DNA from: Arcobacter sp.
GTDB taxonomy: Bacteria > Campylobacterota > Campylobacteria > Campylobacterales > Arcobacteraceae
Length of the DNA stretch: 54,057 bases
Assembly (NCBI GenBank): GCA_003252105.1
Contig: QKDL01000047.1
Span: 1 to 54,057 of the forward strand
Reading direction: 5' to 3'
Position 1 is the stretch's first letter, and every line of letters begins with the position of its first letter. The translations under genes were made by a program, and so were the position numbers. Below the pieces are notes generated by a model that did no database searches, was not told the origin of the DNA, and saw only the letters and a program-made list of their open reading frames with translations. Of this stretch, positions 5,526 through 11,915 are shown piece by piece.

Positions 5526-6380
5526 TTATATAATTAAATCAGTTATTGCTTCATCAATAGTGTTAAATTGAAATTTAAATCCATTATCTAATAATTTTTT
5601 AGGTCTAACACATTGTCCATCTGTTAATACTTTTGCACCTTCACTAAATATAAGTTTTAAGACAAATTCTGGAACTGGAAATATTGTTGGTCTATGTAAT
5701 ACCCTACCTAATGTTTTTGTTAATCCATAATTTGTTGTAATATTAGGAGCTACAAGATTGAATATTCCATGTAATTTTTCATTTTCAATTAAAAAACTAT
5801 ATGCACTTAGTAAATCTTTTATATGGACAAATGGAAAATACTGGCTTCCATCACCTATTGTACCACCTAAACCTAGTTTAAAAGGAGTTAACATTTTTTG
5901 TAAAGCTCCACCATCTCCTAAAACTATACCAAATCTAAAAATAGCAGTTCGAATATTTAACTCTTGAGCTTTTAAAGCCTGATGTTCCCATTCTTTACAA
6001 ACATTTCCCAAAAAATCATCTGAATAATTACTATCATCTTCATCAAAACAACCATTATTTTTATAAATACCTACAGCTGAAGTAGAGATAAACAGTTCTG
6101 GTTTTTTTGATGATTTTTTCATAGCTTTAACTAGAGCTTTTGTAGTATCTATTCTACTATCAAATAAAAGTTTTTTATACGATTGGGTCCATCTATTTAT
6201 GATATTTGCACCTGCTAGATTTATTACTATATCACTTTGTTCTATAATTGAAATAAGTTTTTCTATATCTTTTAAATCATCTCTTTTTATTCCAATAATA
6301 TTGAAATCTTTTTTTTCAAACTCATTTTTAATGTTAGTTCCAACAAAACCTGTAAAACCTGTAATTGCTATTGTTTTCAT
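5526..6380 (-). CDS. TIGR01777-family NAD(P)-dependent epimerase-like protein
   Basis: This belongs to the TIGR01777 branch of extended short-chain dehydrogenases (the SulA/YfcH group), whose substrates are largely unknown. The 284-residue protein begins with the dinucleotide motif ITGFTGFVGTN, has NLAGANI near residue 55 and contains ISTSAVGIYK in place of the usual YxxxK surroundings. The C-terminal DUF1731-like part has PVPEFVLKLIFSEGAKVLTDGQCVRPKKLLDNGF. It is the leftmost gene of the block inserted between tolB and pal. It lies 72 bases from the response regulator gene and has its own promoter with tandem repeats matching those in front of the photolyase operon. In other bacteria this family is often found near photolyase genes. 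Confidence 0.88.
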   Translation of the reverse strand: MKTIAITGFTGFVGTNIKNEFEKKDFNIIGIKRDDLKDIEKLISIIEQSDIVINLAGANIINRWTQSYKKLLFDSRIDTTKALVKAMKKSSKKPELFISTSAVGIYKNNGCFDEDDSNYSDDFLGNVCKEWEHQALKAQELNIRTAIFRFGIVLGDGGALQKMLTPFKLGLGGTIGDGSQYFPFVHIKDLLSAYSFLIENEKLHGIFNLVAPNITTNYGLTKTLGRVLHRPTIFPVPEFVLKLIFSEGAKVLTDGQCVRPKKLLDNGFKFQFNTIDEAITDLII

Positions 6381-6404: not shown

Positions 6405-6449
6405 ATTATAATAGATTTTATACCTTGTTTGTATAGATTTTATGTAAGT
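6405..6449 (-). promoter_or_regulatory. Promoter of epimerase gene with tandem-repeat operator
   Basis: On the minus strand a TATAAT (6405-6410) lies 18 bases from two 9-bp elements at 6428-6436 (CTATACAAA) and 6441-6449 (ACTTACATA), spaced 13 bases start to start and covering the -35 region. The same elements, period and distance to a TATAAT occur before the DUF523 gene at 11864-11907. An upstream weaker copy lies about 22 bases from the proximal repeat. This suggests one activator for both units; the LytTR regulator encoded next door is the obvious candidate, which is inference. Confidence 0.6.
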
Positions 6450-6452
6450 TTA

Positions 6453-7163
6453 TCATAGAGTTCTTTTTTCTAAGTATTCTCTAAACTCTTTTGCACCATC
6501 TTTTGAACTAGTAACTAAATCATCAATTCCTATAAAAGATATTTGTAGTTTTGATTGTTCAACACTTTGCATCGATTTTATTTTGTCTATATTTATAATA
6601 TATGAACGATGAATTCTAAAGAAGTTTTTTGATTCTAGTAAACTCTGCATATCACCAATTTTTTTTCTAACATAAGCATCAGTTTCTTTTATTCTGATTA
6701 TTATTTCATCTAGGTCAGCCTTGATATAGTATATATCATCGATATCGATAAGATATATTTTACTTCCCCTTTTAGCCATGATTTTTTTTGTACTTTTTTC
6801 TTTTGTATTAGAGTATTTTTTTACTTTTTCTAATGCATTGTGAACTGATTCGTTTGAAATTGGTTTTAACAAATAATCCATTCCACCATTTTTGAAAGCT
6901 TCCAAGGCATACTCTTCATATGCTGTTTGAAATATTATAAAGATTTCTGGATTTAAATCTAAAATAGTGCTAGCTAAATCAAGACCATTTATATTTGGCA
7001 TAGAGATATCTAAAAAAGCCACATCAAATCTATTTTTGCTTGCCTCTTTTATAGCCTCTATTGGATTATCACACTCTACTATTTGTGTGAGACCTTCATC
7101 ATTTAGTAATCTTTTTAGTCTAGCTAATGCTAACTTTTCATCATCTACAATCAATATATTCAT
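6453..7163 (-). CDS. LytTR-type response regulator
   Basis: This is the output half of a two-component system that should bind DNA when phosphorylated. The 236-residue protein has an N-terminal receiver domain (1-120) with the acidic pair Asp7-Asp8, phospho-acceptor Asp52 in FLDISMPN, Thr80 and Lys100. The C-terminal LytTR DNA-binding domain (about 135-230) contains IYYIKADLDEI, RIHRSYIINIDKI and the tail REYLEKR. One base separates it from the histidine kinase gene, so the two are cotranscribed and are a cognate pair. It is the last gene of the photolyase operon. Likely targets are the repeat-bearing promoters on either side of the block. Confidence 0.93.
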   Translation of the reverse strand: MNILIVDDEKLALARLKRLLNDEGLTQIVECDNPIEAIKEASKNRFDVAFLDISMPNINGLDLASTILDLNPEIFIIFQTAYEEYALEAFKNGGMDYLLKPISNESVHNALEKVKKYSNTKEKSTKKIMAKRGSKIYLIDIDDIYYIKADLDEIIIRIKETDAYVRKKIGDMQSLLESKNFFRIHRSYIINIDKIKSMQSVEQSKLQISFIGIDDLVTSSKDGAKEFREYLEKRTL

Positions 7164-7164
7164 T

Positions 7165-8157
7165 TTATTCTCTTAGTTTAATTTCAAAAACCAATTTATC
7201 ATCTTCTGTAAAATAAGATAAATCCCCAACATATAGTAATTCTAGTCTTTTTTGTAGATTATTTAACCCTGTGCCAAAAACCAAATCTTTTGTAGGTAGT
7301 AATCCATCATTTGTAACACTAATAGTTTTATTATATACTTTTATACTTATATTTAATACTTCCCCATGAAAACCATGTTTTATTGCATTTTCTACCAATA
7401 ACTGAATTGAAAACTTTGGAACTAAAATATCTGCTAATTCTGAATCATTTGTAGTTGATAATTTTATTTTATCATCAAATCTAATATTTTCTATATTTAC
7501 ATAAGTTTTCACCATCTCTATCTCACTACTTAAACTTATTAGACTCTCTTTATTTATTGCATTTCTTAAAAATGTTGAAAGTGACAATACTGCTTTTTCT
7601 GCTCTTTGTTGGTCTACATATATCAATTCCGATATAGAGTTTAAAGCATTAAATAAAAAATGGGGATTTAGTTCATTTTCCAAGGCTTTTATTTTTGTTT
7701 CTAAAAATTGATTTTTTATTGATTCATTTCTATATTTCATCGAAATAAATTGATGAAGTATCAAGCCTATTAAAAAGGTCATGAACCCTAAGGTTATACT
7801 AATATATGTAAGATATGGTTTTATAATCTCAATAATAGGAAACTCAGTGGTTGAAAAAATATAAAAGATAAATAAAAAACCTAAAAATCCTGATAAAAAA
7901 GAGAATAAAAAACTTATACCATACCAAAATTTCTCTTTTACTTTTGGCAATATATATTCATTTGAGATTGTAATAAAAATAAATGCAAATAAAGAAATAC
8001 TTACAGCACTAATTGTAGTAAAAGCTATTGTTGAAATATGTTGTAAATGTTTATTTAAAAAAAAGAAAACTAAAGAGATAAAAAAACCTAAAAATAAAGC
8101 AATAACTATAATATATACCCAATCTAAAATTAATATTTTTAATTTTATTCTATCCAT
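7165..8157 (-). CDS. LytS/YehU-type sensor histidine kinase (multi-TM)
   Basis: This is the sensor half of a LytTR two-component pair. The 330-residue protein has about four transmembrane helices (roughly residues 12-34, 42-64, 78-102 and 115-137) with very short loops, so it has no large extracytoplasmic sensor and may detect something within the membrane. The His_kinase domain has LNPHFLFNALNSI with His166 as phosphorylation site. A divergent ATPase domain follows, with SIQLLVENAIKHG (N box) and GTGLNNLQKRL. The start codon lies inside the end of the FAD oxidoreductase gene (8-base overlap), so translation is probably coupled. No PAS or GAF domain is visible; the signal is unknown. Confidence 0.9.
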   Translation of the reverse strand: MDRIKLKILILDWVYIIVIALFLGFFISLVFFFLNKHLQHISTIAFTTISAVSISLFAFIFITISNEYILPKVKEKFWYGISFLFSFLSGFLGFLFIFYIFSTTEFPIIEIIKPYLTYISITLGFMTFLIGLILHQFISMKYRNESIKNQFLETKIKALENELNPHFLFNALNSISELIYVDQQRAEKAVLSLSTFLRNAINKESLISLSSEIEMVKTYVNIENIRFDDKIKLSTTNDSELADILVPKFSIQLLVENAIKHGFHGEVLNISIKVYNKTISVTNDGLLPTKDLVFGTGLNNLQKRLELLYVGDLSYFTEDDKLVFEIKLRE

Positions 8158-9568
8158 TATTTAACTCTTTATTTAATATCTCAACACCTATTGCAACACC
8201 TGGCCAACCTTGCCCTGCAAAAACTGTATCTCCTATATTATACAAACCCTTAAAAGGAGTGTTGGAACTAGCTGTATTTAATATATTTTTTATTGTGATG
8301 GGAATACCACCACAGTTTGTTCTATTTATAAAATTGTTGAATGTTTTTGATGTTGCACTAAAAACATACTTTATATTTTCACCATTTATAGTATCAAAAT
8401 TCTCTAAAAATTTTTTAATTATAAACTCTTGAGTTTTTAATTTCTCTTTTTTATATTGTTCTTTTTGTAGATTTTTCCAAAAACTAGCTTTTGTATGGGT
8501 TGAGATTGTTATACTTAAACCATCACTTGAAAGTTTATCATCATCCATACTACTAAATGAGATAAAAAATGCGTTTGAAATACAATTTGGAATATTTTCT
8601 TCTAATATTATTTGATAATGACTTATGTACTCTTTTTTTATGTTTAGTTTCATATAAACTACAAATGCACTTTGATCACTAAAAGAGAAATTTGAATAAT
8701 AGTTTTTTATATCTTTGTCTTCAAATAGATTACCACTATCAAAAATTGTTGAGTTTAATACTATATTTTTAAAAAGGTATTCATCTTTATTTGATATAAC
8801 TCTATATGAATCTTTTTCTCTTTTGATATTTACAATTTTTTCTTTTTTGTGAACATCAATATCAACCAATAAGTCATCAAATATCTTTCCCATACCTCCA
8901 TTTGCATAATAAACATCATGAAAAGGATAAGATAAACCTAAAGCTAAAGACAACAAAGAGATATTTTGGGAATTTGTTTGAAGAGTTATTAAAAGTTGTG
9001 AATCAATGAAATTTTGGTACTCTTGTGAAATATCGGGAAAAATGTCACGTATGAAACCTTTGGCTGTTGAAAAAATACTAAATTTATAAACTTTTAATAA
9101 CTCAAAAACAAAAGAAAAAGTTTTTATATATCTATCAAATGAATATTTTCCAAAATATATTTTTTTTAATAGCCAAAACTTTTCATCAATCTCTTTTATA
9201 GTTTTCCAAAAAATATAATTATTTTTATGGGGATAAACACTGTTTATGTTTTCTAAAAATTGATCAAAATCTTTTATTCTATCTACTATCTTCTCTTTTT
9301 GAATTACCCTTATTGCTACTTCACTTTTTTTTATATCAGGTTTAAAACCCACCTTATCAAAAATCCTTTTTATAGGATGATTATCTTCATACCCTACAAA
9401 TGTTGTTGCACCTGCATTAAAACTATATCCACCTCTTGTAAATGTACTTGCACACCCTCCTAGGTTTGAATCTTTTTCAAAAAGAATCAAATCTTTTTGT
9501 TTATTTAATGAGGAGATTAAACTTCCCCCTATTCCTGAGCCAATGACACCTATATCATGCAGTTTCAT
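8150..9568 (-). CDS. FAD-dependent oxidoreductase, phytoene desaturase/carotenoid isomerase-like
   Basis: The 472-residue protein is a flavoprotein of the amine oxidase/CrtI superfamily. It starts with the ADP-binding motif GVIGSGIGGSLI and an acidic strand end at LFEKDSNLGGCAST (about residues 7-42). It ends with GLYNIGDTVFAGQGWPGVAIGVEI, the C-terminal FAD-binding signature of phytoene desaturases and carotenoid isomerases. No phytoene synthase or other carotenoid gene is in the window, so its substrate is unknown. The gene overlaps the photolyase gene by 14 bases and the kinase gene by 8, placing it firmly in the photolyase operon. FAD oxidoreductases of this kind accompany light-regulated photolyase clusters in some marine bacteria, from memory. 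Confidence 0.82.
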   Translation of the reverse strand: MKLHDIGVIGSGIGGSLISSLNKQKDLILFEKDSNLGGCASTFTRGGYSFNAGATTFVGYEDNHPIKRIFDKVGFKPDIKKSEVAIRVIQKEKIVDRIKDFDQFLENINSVYPHKNNYIFWKTIKEIDEKFWLLKKIYFGKYSFDRYIKTFSFVFELLKVYKFSIFSTAKGFIRDIFPDISQEYQNFIDSQLLITLQTNSQNISLLSLALGLSYPFHDVYYANGGMGKIFDDLLVDIDVHKKEKIVNIKREKDSYRVISNKDEYLFKNIVLNSTIFDSGNLFEDKDIKNYYSNFSFSDQSAFVVYMKLNIKKEYISHYQIILEENIPNCISNAFFISFSSMDDDKLSSDGLSITISTHTKASFWKNLQKEQYKKEKLKTQEFIIKKFLENFDTINGENIKYVFSATSKTFNNFINRTNCGGIPITIKNILNTASSNTPFKGLYNIGDTVFAGQGWPGVAIGVEILNKELNNG

Positions 9569-10895
9569 TTTTTGCCTCTTTAAATTTTTCTATTGCTCTT
9601 TTTCTTGAAAAAGAGATATCTACCATACTTTTAGGATAAGTGACAAAAAGATTAGTTTGTACACCATTTTCTATATGAAATAGTCTTGAATCTACATCTT
9701 TTAAATCTTTTAATACACTTTTCATAAAAATTGCATCTTTATCAAATTTTGAAGATTGACTGTATGGATTAAATACTCTAAAATATGGAGCTGCATCTGC
9801 ACCTGTACTTGCTGACCATTGCCATGAACTAATATTTGAACTAGCTTCATAATCTAAAAGTTTCAAAGCAAAATAGTTTTCCCCTTTTTTCCAATCTATA
9901 AATAGATTTTTAGTTAGAAATGAAGCAACTATCATTCTTAATCTATTGTGCATAAGACCTGTTTCATTTAACCTCTTCATAGCAGCATCTATTACAGGAA
10001 CTCCTGTTTCACCTATGCACCATTTTTGAAAATCCTCTTCGTTTTCATTCCAGCTTATATCAATCTGGTTGAAGGTTTCAAACTCCGATTTTGGAAAATG
10101 AAAAAGTATATAGTTGTAAAACTCTCTCCAAAATAACTCTCTAATAAAAAAATCACTATTTTCAAACTGTCTAAAATAGTTAAAAACCTGTCTTGGTGAA
10201 ACCAAACCAAATCTTAAGTGAACAGATATATTAGAGGTTGCATCTTTATAAAAGAAATCTCTATCCTCTTGATAGTTATCTAGTTTTATTAAAAAGTCTT
10301 CAAAAAGCTTTTGTGGCTCTTTGTATAAAAATGCAGTTAGCTTTTGTTTTTTGAATCCTAGTTGTTCTAAAGAGGGAATATTTTCATAATCAAACTCAAA
10401 CTTTTTTAAATCTTTATTTCTCTTATACTCTTCAATACTATTTGAAGCAGTTAATATATTTAATGATTTATAAAATGGTGTAAAAACTTTATATGGATTT
10501 CCATCTGCTTTTAGATGTTCATTGGGATTTAAAATAAATGAATCTAAATATCTTTTTAGAGGAATAATTGATTCAATCTCTATATCTCTTTTTTTTGCAT
10601 AATCATCAAAATCGATAGAACAAAGAGTTTCATCAAACCCTAGTATTGCTAAGTTTTCAAAAACATTTTTTGGATAATCATAAAATATAGCTAAATCTAA
10701 ACCAATAGATTGAAGTTTTAGTTTTAGTTTTAAAACTGCATCATAGATAAAAGTTACCCTTTTATCATCAGATGGTAAATTATCTAAAATATTTTTATCA
10801 AAGATAAATATAGGTAATACTTCATCTTTTGCATTAGCTAAGATTGCATTGTCTTCTACTCTTAAATCCCTTCTAAACCAAACTATCTGTTTCAT
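9555..10895 (-). CDS. phrB: Deoxyribodipyrimidine photolyase (class I type)
   Basis: Photolyase repairs UV-induced cyclobutane pyrimidine dimers using near-UV/blue light absorbed by FAD and an antenna cofactor. The 446-residue protein begins with the family signature IVWFRRDLRVEDN in the alpha/beta antenna domain (1-130). The helical FAD domain contains LFWREFYNYILFHF, GVPVIDAAMKRLNETGLMHNR and NISSWQWSASTGADAAPYFRVFNP, which hold the flavin and lesion-contacting residues and part of the electron-transfer tryptophan chain. The gene overlaps its neighbours on both sides (4 and 14 bases). A cryptochrome function cannot be excluded, but the conserved NR and WQWSASTG segments favour repair. Confidence 0.94.
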   Translation of the reverse strand: MKQIVWFRRDLRVEDNAILANAKDEVLPIFIFDKNILDNLPSDDKRVTFIYDAVLKLKLKLQSIGLDLAIFYDYPKNVFENLAILGFDETLCSIDFDDYAKKRDIEIESIIPLKRYLDSFILNPNEHLKADGNPYKVFTPFYKSLNILTASNSIEEYKRNKDLKKFEFDYENIPSLEQLGFKKQKLTAFLYKEPQKLFEDFLIKLDNYQEDRDFFYKDATSNISVHLRFGLVSPRQVFNYFRQFENSDFFIRELFWREFYNYILFHFPKSEFETFNQIDISWNENEEDFQKWCIGETGVPVIDAAMKRLNETGLMHNRLRMIVASFLTKNLFIDWKKGENYFALKLLDYEASSNISSWQWSASTGADAAPYFRVFNPYSQSSKFDKDAIFMKSVLKDLKDVDSRLFHIENGVQTNLFVTYPKSMVDISFSRKRAIEKFKEAKNETA

Positions 10896-11845
10896 CTATA
10901 TGCCTCAACTTTTGACCGTAGAGCTAACTCTTTTGGATAGGGTTTTAAAAATACTTGTTTTTTTAAATACTCAATATCAAACTTATTTACATAAAGTTTT
11001 ATAATTTTAATTACTGCAATTAATGGAATAATCTCTTTTTTAAAATCCTCCATTGTTTCTAAAATCTCTTCTTTCTCCTCTTTTGTGATATTTTTTTTGA
11101 AATATCCATAGATATGAAGTAAAACATTGTATGTATTTTTTATAGTCCCTTTTTGAGAAATAGCTTCTAAAAATAGTGATTTATAATCTTCTAATACAAC
11201 ATTTAAAGGTCTTTTATCTCTATTTGCAACTATATTTCCTAAGTTTTTATAAGAGTCATGTGATTTTGAATAAATCAAATATTTATAGGAAGTGTGAAAC
11301 TCAACTAAATCATTTATTGAAGGATTTGATTGCAATAATTCAAACAATGACTTATATGCAAAAACCTGCATAAGAAAATTTTCTCTTAACCAAGGATCAC
11401 CTAATCTACCCTCTTCTTCCATAGGTAAATATGGAAACTTCTCTTTTAGTTCTTTTGCAAATGCTCCAATACCAACATTTTCACTTTGTCCATTTTTCTT
11501 ATCTGGATAGATTTTTACTCTTTCCATACCACATGTTGGAGATTTTGATTTTAGTATAAATCCATACAATTGATTATCTTCAATTTTTTCTACAAGCTCT
11601 TTTGATATCTTTGTTACTATATTAGTAACATCTTTATTATCATTGGAAGTTCTTATTGATACGATTCCATTGCTTCGTACTAATCTAATTGCAGGTCTTG
11701 GAGTTGGGAATACTAATCTTTCAGGACAAAAAGAATCAAACTCAAAATACTCTGATAATTGATTAACAATAAATTTATCTCTTGAATGACCACCATCATA
11801 ACGACACATTGTCCCTAAAAGACAAGAAGATATTCCTAGTTTCAT
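10892..11845 (-). CDS. DUF523-DUF1722 fusion protein (YbgA family)
   Basis: This two-domain protein of unknown activity is strongly linked to photolyase. The N-terminal DUF523 domain (about 1-150) begins MKLGISSCLLGTMCRYDGGH and has CPERLVFPTPRPAIRL and KSKSPTCGMERVKIY, with conserved cysteines that could bind a metal or cluster. The C-terminal DUF1722 domain (about 180-305), equivalent to E. coli YbgA, contains LVEFHTSYKYLIYSKSHDSYKNLG. In E. coli ybgA lies directly upstream of phrB, and the same order holds here with a 4-base overlap. A promoter with tandem repeats precedes it (11864-11907), making it the first gene of a five-gene operon. Confidence 0.9.
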   Translation of the reverse strand: MKLGISSCLLGTMCRYDGGHSRDKFIVNQLSEYFEFDSFCPERLVFPTPRPAIRLVRSNGIVSIRTSNDNKDVTNIVTKISKELVEKIEDNQLYGFILKSKSPTCGMERVKIYPDKKNGQSENVGIGAFAKELKEKFPYLPMEEEGRLGDPWLRENFLMQVFAYKSLFELLQSNPSINDLVEFHTSYKYLIYSKSHDSYKNLGNIVANRDKRPLNVVLEDYKSLFLEAISQKGTIKNTYNVLLHIYGYFKKNITKEEKEEILETMEDFKKEIIPLIAVIKIIKLYVNKFDIEYLKKQVFLKPYPKELALRSKVEAYR

Positions 11846-11863
11846 TTTTTACTCCTTTGTAAA

Positions 11864-11907
11864 ATTATAATGAAACTAGAATATATTTGTAAGTATTTTT
11901 TGTAAGT
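11864..11907 (-). promoter_or_regulatory. Photolyase-operon promoter with tandem-repeat operator
   Basis: On the minus strand a TATAAT (11864-11869) is preceded, 17 bases away, by two identical 9-bp repeats ACTTACAAA at 11886-11894 and 11899-11907 (13-base period), which sit where the -35 should be. A weaker copy, TCTTATAAA, lies 21 bases upstream of the proximal repeat. There is no good -35 hexamer, as expected for an activator-dependent promoter. The arrangement is copied at 6405-6449 before the epimerase gene. The block lies between the tolB stop and the DUF523 start. Confidence 0.62.
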
Positions 11908-11915
11908 TTATAAGA

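Follow-up and report, generated by a model that had tools for sequence, protein, structure and literature searches.

A conserved bipartite promoter element shared by the photolyase operon and an epimerase gene of Arcobacter, and its likely link to a LytTR two-component system in Arcobacteraceae

Positions 1 to 54,057 of contig QKDL01000047.1 from Arcobacter sp. (assembly GCA_003252105.1) were analysed; this whole stretch of 54,057 nucleotides is called the window. The host genome comprises 3.02 Mb in 96 contigs, and its assembly is 92% complete. On the minus strand, the window carries an operon in the order DUF523/DUF1722 gene, photolyase, flavin adenine dinucleotide (FAD) oxidoreductase (AMOX), PF06580 sensor kinase (HK) and LytTR response regulator. 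Beyond the operon, 72 bases from the LytTR gene and on the same strand, lies a gene for a TIGR01777-family epimerase of the short-chain dehydrogenase/reductase (SDR) type (Table 1). In this study, a common bipartite element, AACTNACA-N9-TACNAA-N16/17-TATAAT, was found upstream of both units, and was further found to be conserved among Arcobacteraceae and to co-occur with the LytTR gene.

The element occupies the -35 position, and its centre lies some 40 bp before the probable start. The initial annotation had described the two promoters as sharing flanking text and a TATAAT-containing architecture, in which two 9-bp repeats with a 13-bp period stood 17 or 18 bases before TATAAT. The DUF523 promoter reads ACTTACAAA-N4-ACTTACAAA-N16-TATAAT (11864-11907) and the epimerase promoter ACTTACATA-N4-CTATACAAA-N17-TATAAT (6405-6449), so that the spacers had been given one base too long; the common flanking text, ATAAACTTACA, is present at both. 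The strict form of the repeat (two ACTTACA 13 apart, then TATAAT) occurred once in the window and in none of 100 shuffles, and the DUF523 site alone in the window matched the full ACTTACAAA pair with three mismatches or fewer, 0.35 matches being expected by chance. The epimerase copy of the repeat is weak when taken by itself. A profile trained on 29 orthologous promoters of relatives, with the window's own two excluded, scored the two promoters of the window at 25.8 and 24.8, against 10.1 for the next-best place in the 54 kb scanned. Across 60 simulated windows the maximum was 17.7, and the real sites stood about 15 bits above the next place. Because the relatives-only profile picks out both promoters, the shared element was judged to be real, and the observation that one element stands at both of them was confirmed.

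Table 1. Positions of the element and of the surrounding genes in the window
Feature	Position	Strand	Remark
Element and promoter of the DUF523-photolyase-oxidoreductase-kinase-LytTR operon	11864..11908	-	AACTTACA-N9-TACAAA-N16-TATAAT
Distal box AACTTACA, operon promoter	11901..11908	-	conserved extension TATAAACTNACA
Proximal box TACAAA at the -35 position, operon promoter	11886..11891	-	
-10 box TATAAT, operon promoter	11864..11869	-	
Element and promoter of the epimerase gene	6405..6450	-	AACTTACA-N9-TACAAA-N17-TATAAT
Distal box AACTTACA, epimerase promoter	6443..6450	-	
Proximal box TACAAA, epimerase promoter	6428..6433	-	
-10 box TATAAT, epimerase promoter	6405..6410	-	
DUF523/2-thiouracil desulfurase domain and DUF1722 protein, first gene of the operon	10892..11845	-	
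DNA photolyase	9555..10895	-	
FAD oxidoreductase (AMOX), resembling carotenoid desaturases/isomerases	8150..9568	-	best model CrtD, score under cut-off
His_kinase-family (PF06580) sensor kinase, four hydrophobic N-terminal helices	7165..8157	-	
LytTR response regulator, proposed reader of the element	6453..7163	-	
TIGR01777-family SDR epimerase, proposed target	5526..6380	-	

Among the orthologous upstream regions, the element was matched exactly in 13 of 20 DUF523 promoters and in 6 of the 17 epimerase regions read, with near matches at five further epimerases (L052, L055, L058, L060 and L064). Five other epimerases lie 15-36 bp behind the LytTR gene without an element of their own, and the epimerase of L072 lies elsewhere; these six regions were left out of an unbiased motif search, which covered 31 orthologous promoters (20 DUF523 and 11 of the 17 epimerase promoters). 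The search, which used no preset pattern, returned ATAAACTNACA, a gap and TACNAA. When the gap was allowed to vary from 4 to 14 and TATAAT was required, 30 of 42 matches had a gap of 9 (the reversed control gave 4 matches), and TATAAT followed after 16 bases in 23 of these 30 and after 17 bases in 7. The conserved unit is thus a bipartite box of 8+6 bases in which a 9-bp gap is preferred. The 13-bp direct repeat, which the initial annotation had offered as a new operator class, was rejected as the recognition unit: it is not conserved among the orthologous promoters, the second ACTTACAAA opening with three unconserved bases, and an offset of 13 was not the best internal period. Likewise, an extracytoplasmic function (ECF) sigma promoter was rejected, as AACT stands 35 bases from the -10 box, the spacers of ECF promoters are far shorter than this, and the -10 box is TATAAT-like.

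In relatives, the epimerase genes with an element of their own, exact or near, stand beside the LytTR gene. Away from LytTR, the element was found at 0 of 20 epimerases (12 in genomes with a LytTR ortholog and 8 in genomes without one); the 20 come from a set of 23 epimerases that have neither LytTR nor photolyase as neighbours, those of G047, G052 and G055 being left out. Both G005 and G008 have two epimerase copies, of which the one next to LytTR carries a near match and the second carries none, and at L083 and L085, where the genomes have LytTR and the epimerases lie away from it, only a piece resembling the proximal half remains with the -10 box. The tie between epimerase and operon, previously drawn from the window alone, is supported by relatives, whose epimerases either directly follow LytTR or carry their own element beside it. 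As a separate observation, the epimerase of G003 (L079 1400-1720) and the second copies of G005 and G008 (L080, L081) stand without an element behind an apparent tolB end, which is the spot where the window has the photolyase operon.

Genome-wide scans extended these results. The bipartite box alone gave 50 matches in 16 genomes of the genus, compared with 13 for the reversed pattern; box and -10 together gave 95 matches in 49 of 104 Arcobacteraceae genomes (including three sites counted twice owing to two possible -10 boxes each), compared with 2 when the pattern was reversed. Outside the family, 226 genomes of the order yielded 8 matches, compared with 7 in the control, and one of the 8 lies in G054, which has a LytTR ortholog. 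The motif is hence no common AT-rich noise, the outcome that the initial annotation had named as one that would refute its proposal. LytTR orthologs, called at E 1e-30, were present in 72 of the 104 family genomes, and an element match was found in 46 of these 72 but in only 3 of the 32 genomes without an ortholog (Fisher p 1.1e-7, phylogeny ignored). Two of the exceptions without LytTR are a site inside a reading frame (G086) and a site before an unrelated, radical-SAM-like gene as judged by eye (G099). Furthermore, the element heads the LytTR operon in varied gene orders, for example with AMOX first in G016, and precedes the gene adjoining LytTR in G029, G090, G117 and G120.

The genes behind the element form a recurring set. 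With the duplicate text of G081 and G082 merged, the classification covered 92 distinct sites, including one from G054, which is not a member of the family; 13 were flagged inside reading frames, and of the 79 non-coding sites 73 precede this set. Its larger classes are DUF523-photolyase (14 sites), SDR (12), lipocalin (11), phasin-like (10), epimerase (6) and FAD oxidoreductase (6), and its smaller ones glutathione peroxidase (3), ferrochelatase (2), CbiX (2) and SRPBCC (2, a weak Pfam match); NMT1/THI5-like, AMOX, ThiD, cryptochrome-like DPRP and PdxH genes were counted once each. The phasin label is weak, since L109 and the copy in the host genome have no Pfam match and L073 and L197 score under the cut-off. 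In G008, the SDR site heads a series of SDR, SnoaL, major facilitator superfamily, lipocalin, amine oxidase, DUF1365, cyclopropane synthase, DUF3833, CbiX and lipocalin genes; this ten-gene cluster lies at L064 5223-12936, 0.5 kb downstream of the epimerase. In G010, a lipocalin site heads lipocalin, amine oxidase, DUF1365, cyclopropane synthase and DUF3833 genes. DUF1365, a marker of the furan-fatty-acid pathway, was above the cut-off in 47 genomes, all 47 of which have the LytTR ortholog. The incomplete host assembly gave no DUF1365 match, and photolyase is present in it. Three credible sites were found in the host genome, namely the two in the window and one outside it at C83:1286-1335 (L001, L203), which has exact boxes and a poor -10 box (two mismatches) and is followed by genes for a phasin-like protein, PdxH and an ABC1-type kinase. 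Enzymes of vitamin B6 (PdxH, ThiD, NMT1/THI5-like) recur among the targets in relatives. Other host candidates were set aside: a near match with one mismatch at C50:24980-25028, between divergent genes outside the set, was taken as chance, and the bipartite-box matches C1:43995 and C68:8602 fall within reading frames.

Response_reg (3e-26) and LytTR (3.7e-21) were both above the Pfam cut-offs in the regulator, whose best NCBIfam model was BtsR with a score under the cut-off, and the kinase matched His_kinase at 1e-23; encoded together, the two genes constitute a LytTR two-component system. The kinase gene adjoins the LytTR gene in 27 of 27 relative loci read (one partial). The structure model of the kinase was good (mean predicted local distance difference test score 82.9) and contained four predicted hydrophobic helices and the kinase core. 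Fold matches of the model were kinase domains only, the best being GanS (E 5.8e-08), and structure comparison gave no match for the sensor part. AgrA structures matched the LytTR domain weakly, with E about 0.003, and no argument on specificity is based on them.

Based on these data, the element likely serves as the conserved operator in a photo-oxidative-damage regulon that spans the family, and is likely read by the co-operonic LytTR regulator under the drive of the four-transmembrane kinase. In the proposed mechanism, the kinase would drive the regulator, which would bind the element and probably help RNA polymerase at the -35 position, and the circuit would be autoregulatory because the operon carries its own regulator genes. 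The sigma-70 promoters of Campylobacter jejuni are described without a -35 box (PMC3847290; this and the other published systems are cited from excerpts of their sources), and conserved boxes at that position therefore point to a regulator. Activation was preferred as the mode of action because the 16-17 bp phase to the -10 box is tight. Light or singlet oxygen may be the stimulus. The predicted members in the host are the DUF523-photolyase-oxidoreductase-kinase-LytTR operon, the epimerase gene and the C83 site with its phasin-like, PdxH and ABC1-type kinase genes. The overall interpretation of the initial annotation is thus partly supported, and the family-wide regulon is the larger point, beyond what a single stretch of sequence offers.

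Several observations weigh against the proposed role of the LytTR system. The association with the LytTR gene is uncorrected for phylogeny, 26 of the 72 genomes with LytTR have no exact match (some elements being decayed, e.g., L072), and no clear element was visible at L075, which belongs to a genome with LytTR. In G003, which has no LytTR ortholog, a clean intergenic site (L112) precedes a small protein with one transmembrane helix. The remaining six of the 79 non-coding sites precede unrelated genes (two chemoreceptors, a small transmembrane gene, L112, L138 and L147), and domain scans recognised no cofactor or photoreceptor domain in the kinase. In addition, the element has no clear direct-repeat period: its internal similarity was best at an offset of 17, then 21, then 12 and 13, and was weak throughout. 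Extra copies 21 and 22 bases upstream had earlier been read as a hint of LytTR binding. The 21-bp copy stands in part, since TAYNAA recurs 21 bp apart with T in one block and C in the other, and may be suggestive of LytTR-type operators (two imperfect direct repeats of 8-13 bp, about 12 bp apart, with a period of about 20-22 bp), even though the offset of 17 scores higher; the 22-bp copy at the epimerase falls outside the conserved register. ATAAACTTA resembles the reverse complement of the LytTR consensus reportedly given by Nikolskaya and Galperin, a likeness not used as support. Classical LytTR repeats are not claimed, as a profile of the published repeats of LytTR regulatory systems (LRS; PMC6193735) fitted the element no better than column-permuted versions, of which 218 of 300 were as good. 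Finally, LytTR activators mostly bind further upstream than the -35 position, and the operator of CoxC, which overlaps it, serves repression (PMC11347149).

Some of these observations would suit a real operator read by a one-component regulator of the same genomes, with LytTR as a mere passenger of the operon. The G003 site, the unlikeness of the element to published repeats of LytTR systems and a MarR-family gene divergent from the SDR operon in G008 (L064 13107-13523) favour such a reader; the MarR gene was, however, seen at 1 of 16 loci checked, many of which reach only some 400 bases upstream, and the presence of the element at the LytTR operon itself in widely differing arrangements, as well as its distribution between genomes with and without LytTR, makes this explanation quite improbable. 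Alternatively, the LytTR protein may bind the element as a repressor over the -35 region that is relieved by light or oxidative stress. Repressors tolerate more operator positions than activators that contact RNA polymerase, and the fixed phase to the -10 box suits an activator touching the polymerase. The overlap of operator and -35 position is the geometry of CoxC (PMC11347149), and the -10 boxes are near consensus; but Campylobacterota promoters are described as having no -35 box (PMC3847290), so that a strong -10 box alone is no argument for repression, which we regard as unlikely.

The nature of the stimulus is a further matter, since the regulon might answer general membrane or peroxide stress instead of light, with the photolyase carried along. 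The targets of the lipocalin, glutathione peroxidase, cyclopropane synthase and phasin-like classes are membrane-related, and the kinase has a membrane sensor only; photolyase, cryptochrome-like DPRP and ferrochelatase are nevertheless among the targets, and the set matches the singlet-oxygen/blue-light core of other bacteria, which renders an answer to general stress rather doubtful. Chance similarity of two AT-rich promoters, to which the unstriking epimerase copy alone might lend itself, is refuted by conservation across genomes: the 95 family matches against 2, the unbiased motif, the 73 of 79 targets and the relatives-only profile leave practically no room for it.

The candidate LytTR-controlled regulon represents the same kind of gene set as known photo-oxidative regulons, under a different type of regulator. 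The RpoE-ChrR core of Rhodobacter sphaeroides and Pseudomonas syringae (PSPTO_1043) comprises an SDR, a photolyase, a flavin oxidoreductase (flavin amine oxidase, UfaD-type), a DUF1365 protein (UfaO-type) and a cyclopropane/methyl synthase (UfaM-type) (PMC5507510); furan fatty acids are made by UfaM, UfaD and the DUF1365 protein UfaO (PMC7380195). This core set is complete in the relatives G008 and G010. RpoE-ChrR, however, uses an ECF sigma factor with a promoter of the TGATC...CGTA type, whereas in the Arcobacteraceae the -10 box is sigma-70-like, the -35 position is taken by a bipartite box, and the proposed control is by a LytTR two-component system. In place of a promoter of the RpoE-ChrR type, these genes carry the element with a TATAAT-type -10 box (rpoE and chrR elsewhere in the genomes were not searched for). 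Regulators of the LitR/PplR kind (class II MerR-type) in Pseudomonas control phrB, an SDR, an FAD oxidoreductase, ufaM and cryB (PMC9758184), and in Vibrio cholerae, with MerR/ChrR, blue light induces operons of the photolyase family and a cyclopropane fatty acid synthase (PMC5241685). Photolyase, SDR, FAD oxidoreductase, furan-fatty-acid synthase and a cryptochrome-like gene are similarly clustered with the regulator there, but regulator family and operator differ; no MerR-family gene was found in the operon of the window or in the neighbours scanned, no genome-wide search having been made.

The signalling pair itself resembles AlgZ-AlgR and BtsS-BtsR in combining a PF06580 kinase with a receiver-LytTR regulator, and AlgZ is described with four transmembrane helices in its first 150 residues (PMC4064291). 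Those systems have other targets (alginate, pili and pyruvate uptake), and AlgR binds sites of the CCGTTCGTC type (PMC4064291); the Arcobacteraceae operators lie on the -35 position. In the LRS of Streptococcus mutans, too, a LytTR operon regulates itself through an operator at its promoter; the repeats there are ACC.CTTA. with gaps of 11-13 bp, about 10 bp upstream of -35, and LRS have no kinase (PMC6193735). Judged by the titles and opening lines of abstracts, none of the open-licence papers listed on LytTR with photolyase or singlet oxygen, or on Arcobacter with photolyase or blue light, gives an account of this regulon.

If the proposed regulon is correct, different bacteria would have placed one and the same protective set under three kinds of control, namely an ECF sigma factor, a MerR-type photoreceptor and a LytTR two-component system, which would be a clean example of a conserved regulon whose regulator has been exchanged. 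The regulon would also give a function and an operator to a kinase/LytTR pair present in most Arcobacteraceae genomes, predict uncharacterised genes, such as those for DUF523/DUF1722 and the TIGR01777 epimerase, as targets, and provide a membrane-bound candidate sensor of photo-oxidation without a known light-absorbing domain. More speculatively, and with the balance still on the side of doubt, this may be a third independent wiring of the photo-oxidative core, in which the AlgZ-like kinase would sense light-induced membrane or lipid oxidation directly, perhaps via the product of the CrtD/UfaD-like oxidoreductase, and LytTR with a non-classical operator would drive photolyase, furan/cyclopropane fatty-acid genes, lipocalins, glutathione peroxidase and vitamin B6 genes.

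Further features of the gene neighbourhoods were recorded. AMOX accompanies the kinase and LytTR genes in 26 of the 27 loci read (L052-L078), more steadily than photolyase or DUF523, and owing to this constancy it may belong to sensing or to the core output. A protein of about 40 residues with one transmembrane helix follows the site both in G005 (L104 1501-1697), which has LytTR, and in G003 (L112 from 1501). In G020, a second photolyase-like frame, distant at 25% identity, lies near the cluster (L060 1540-2754).

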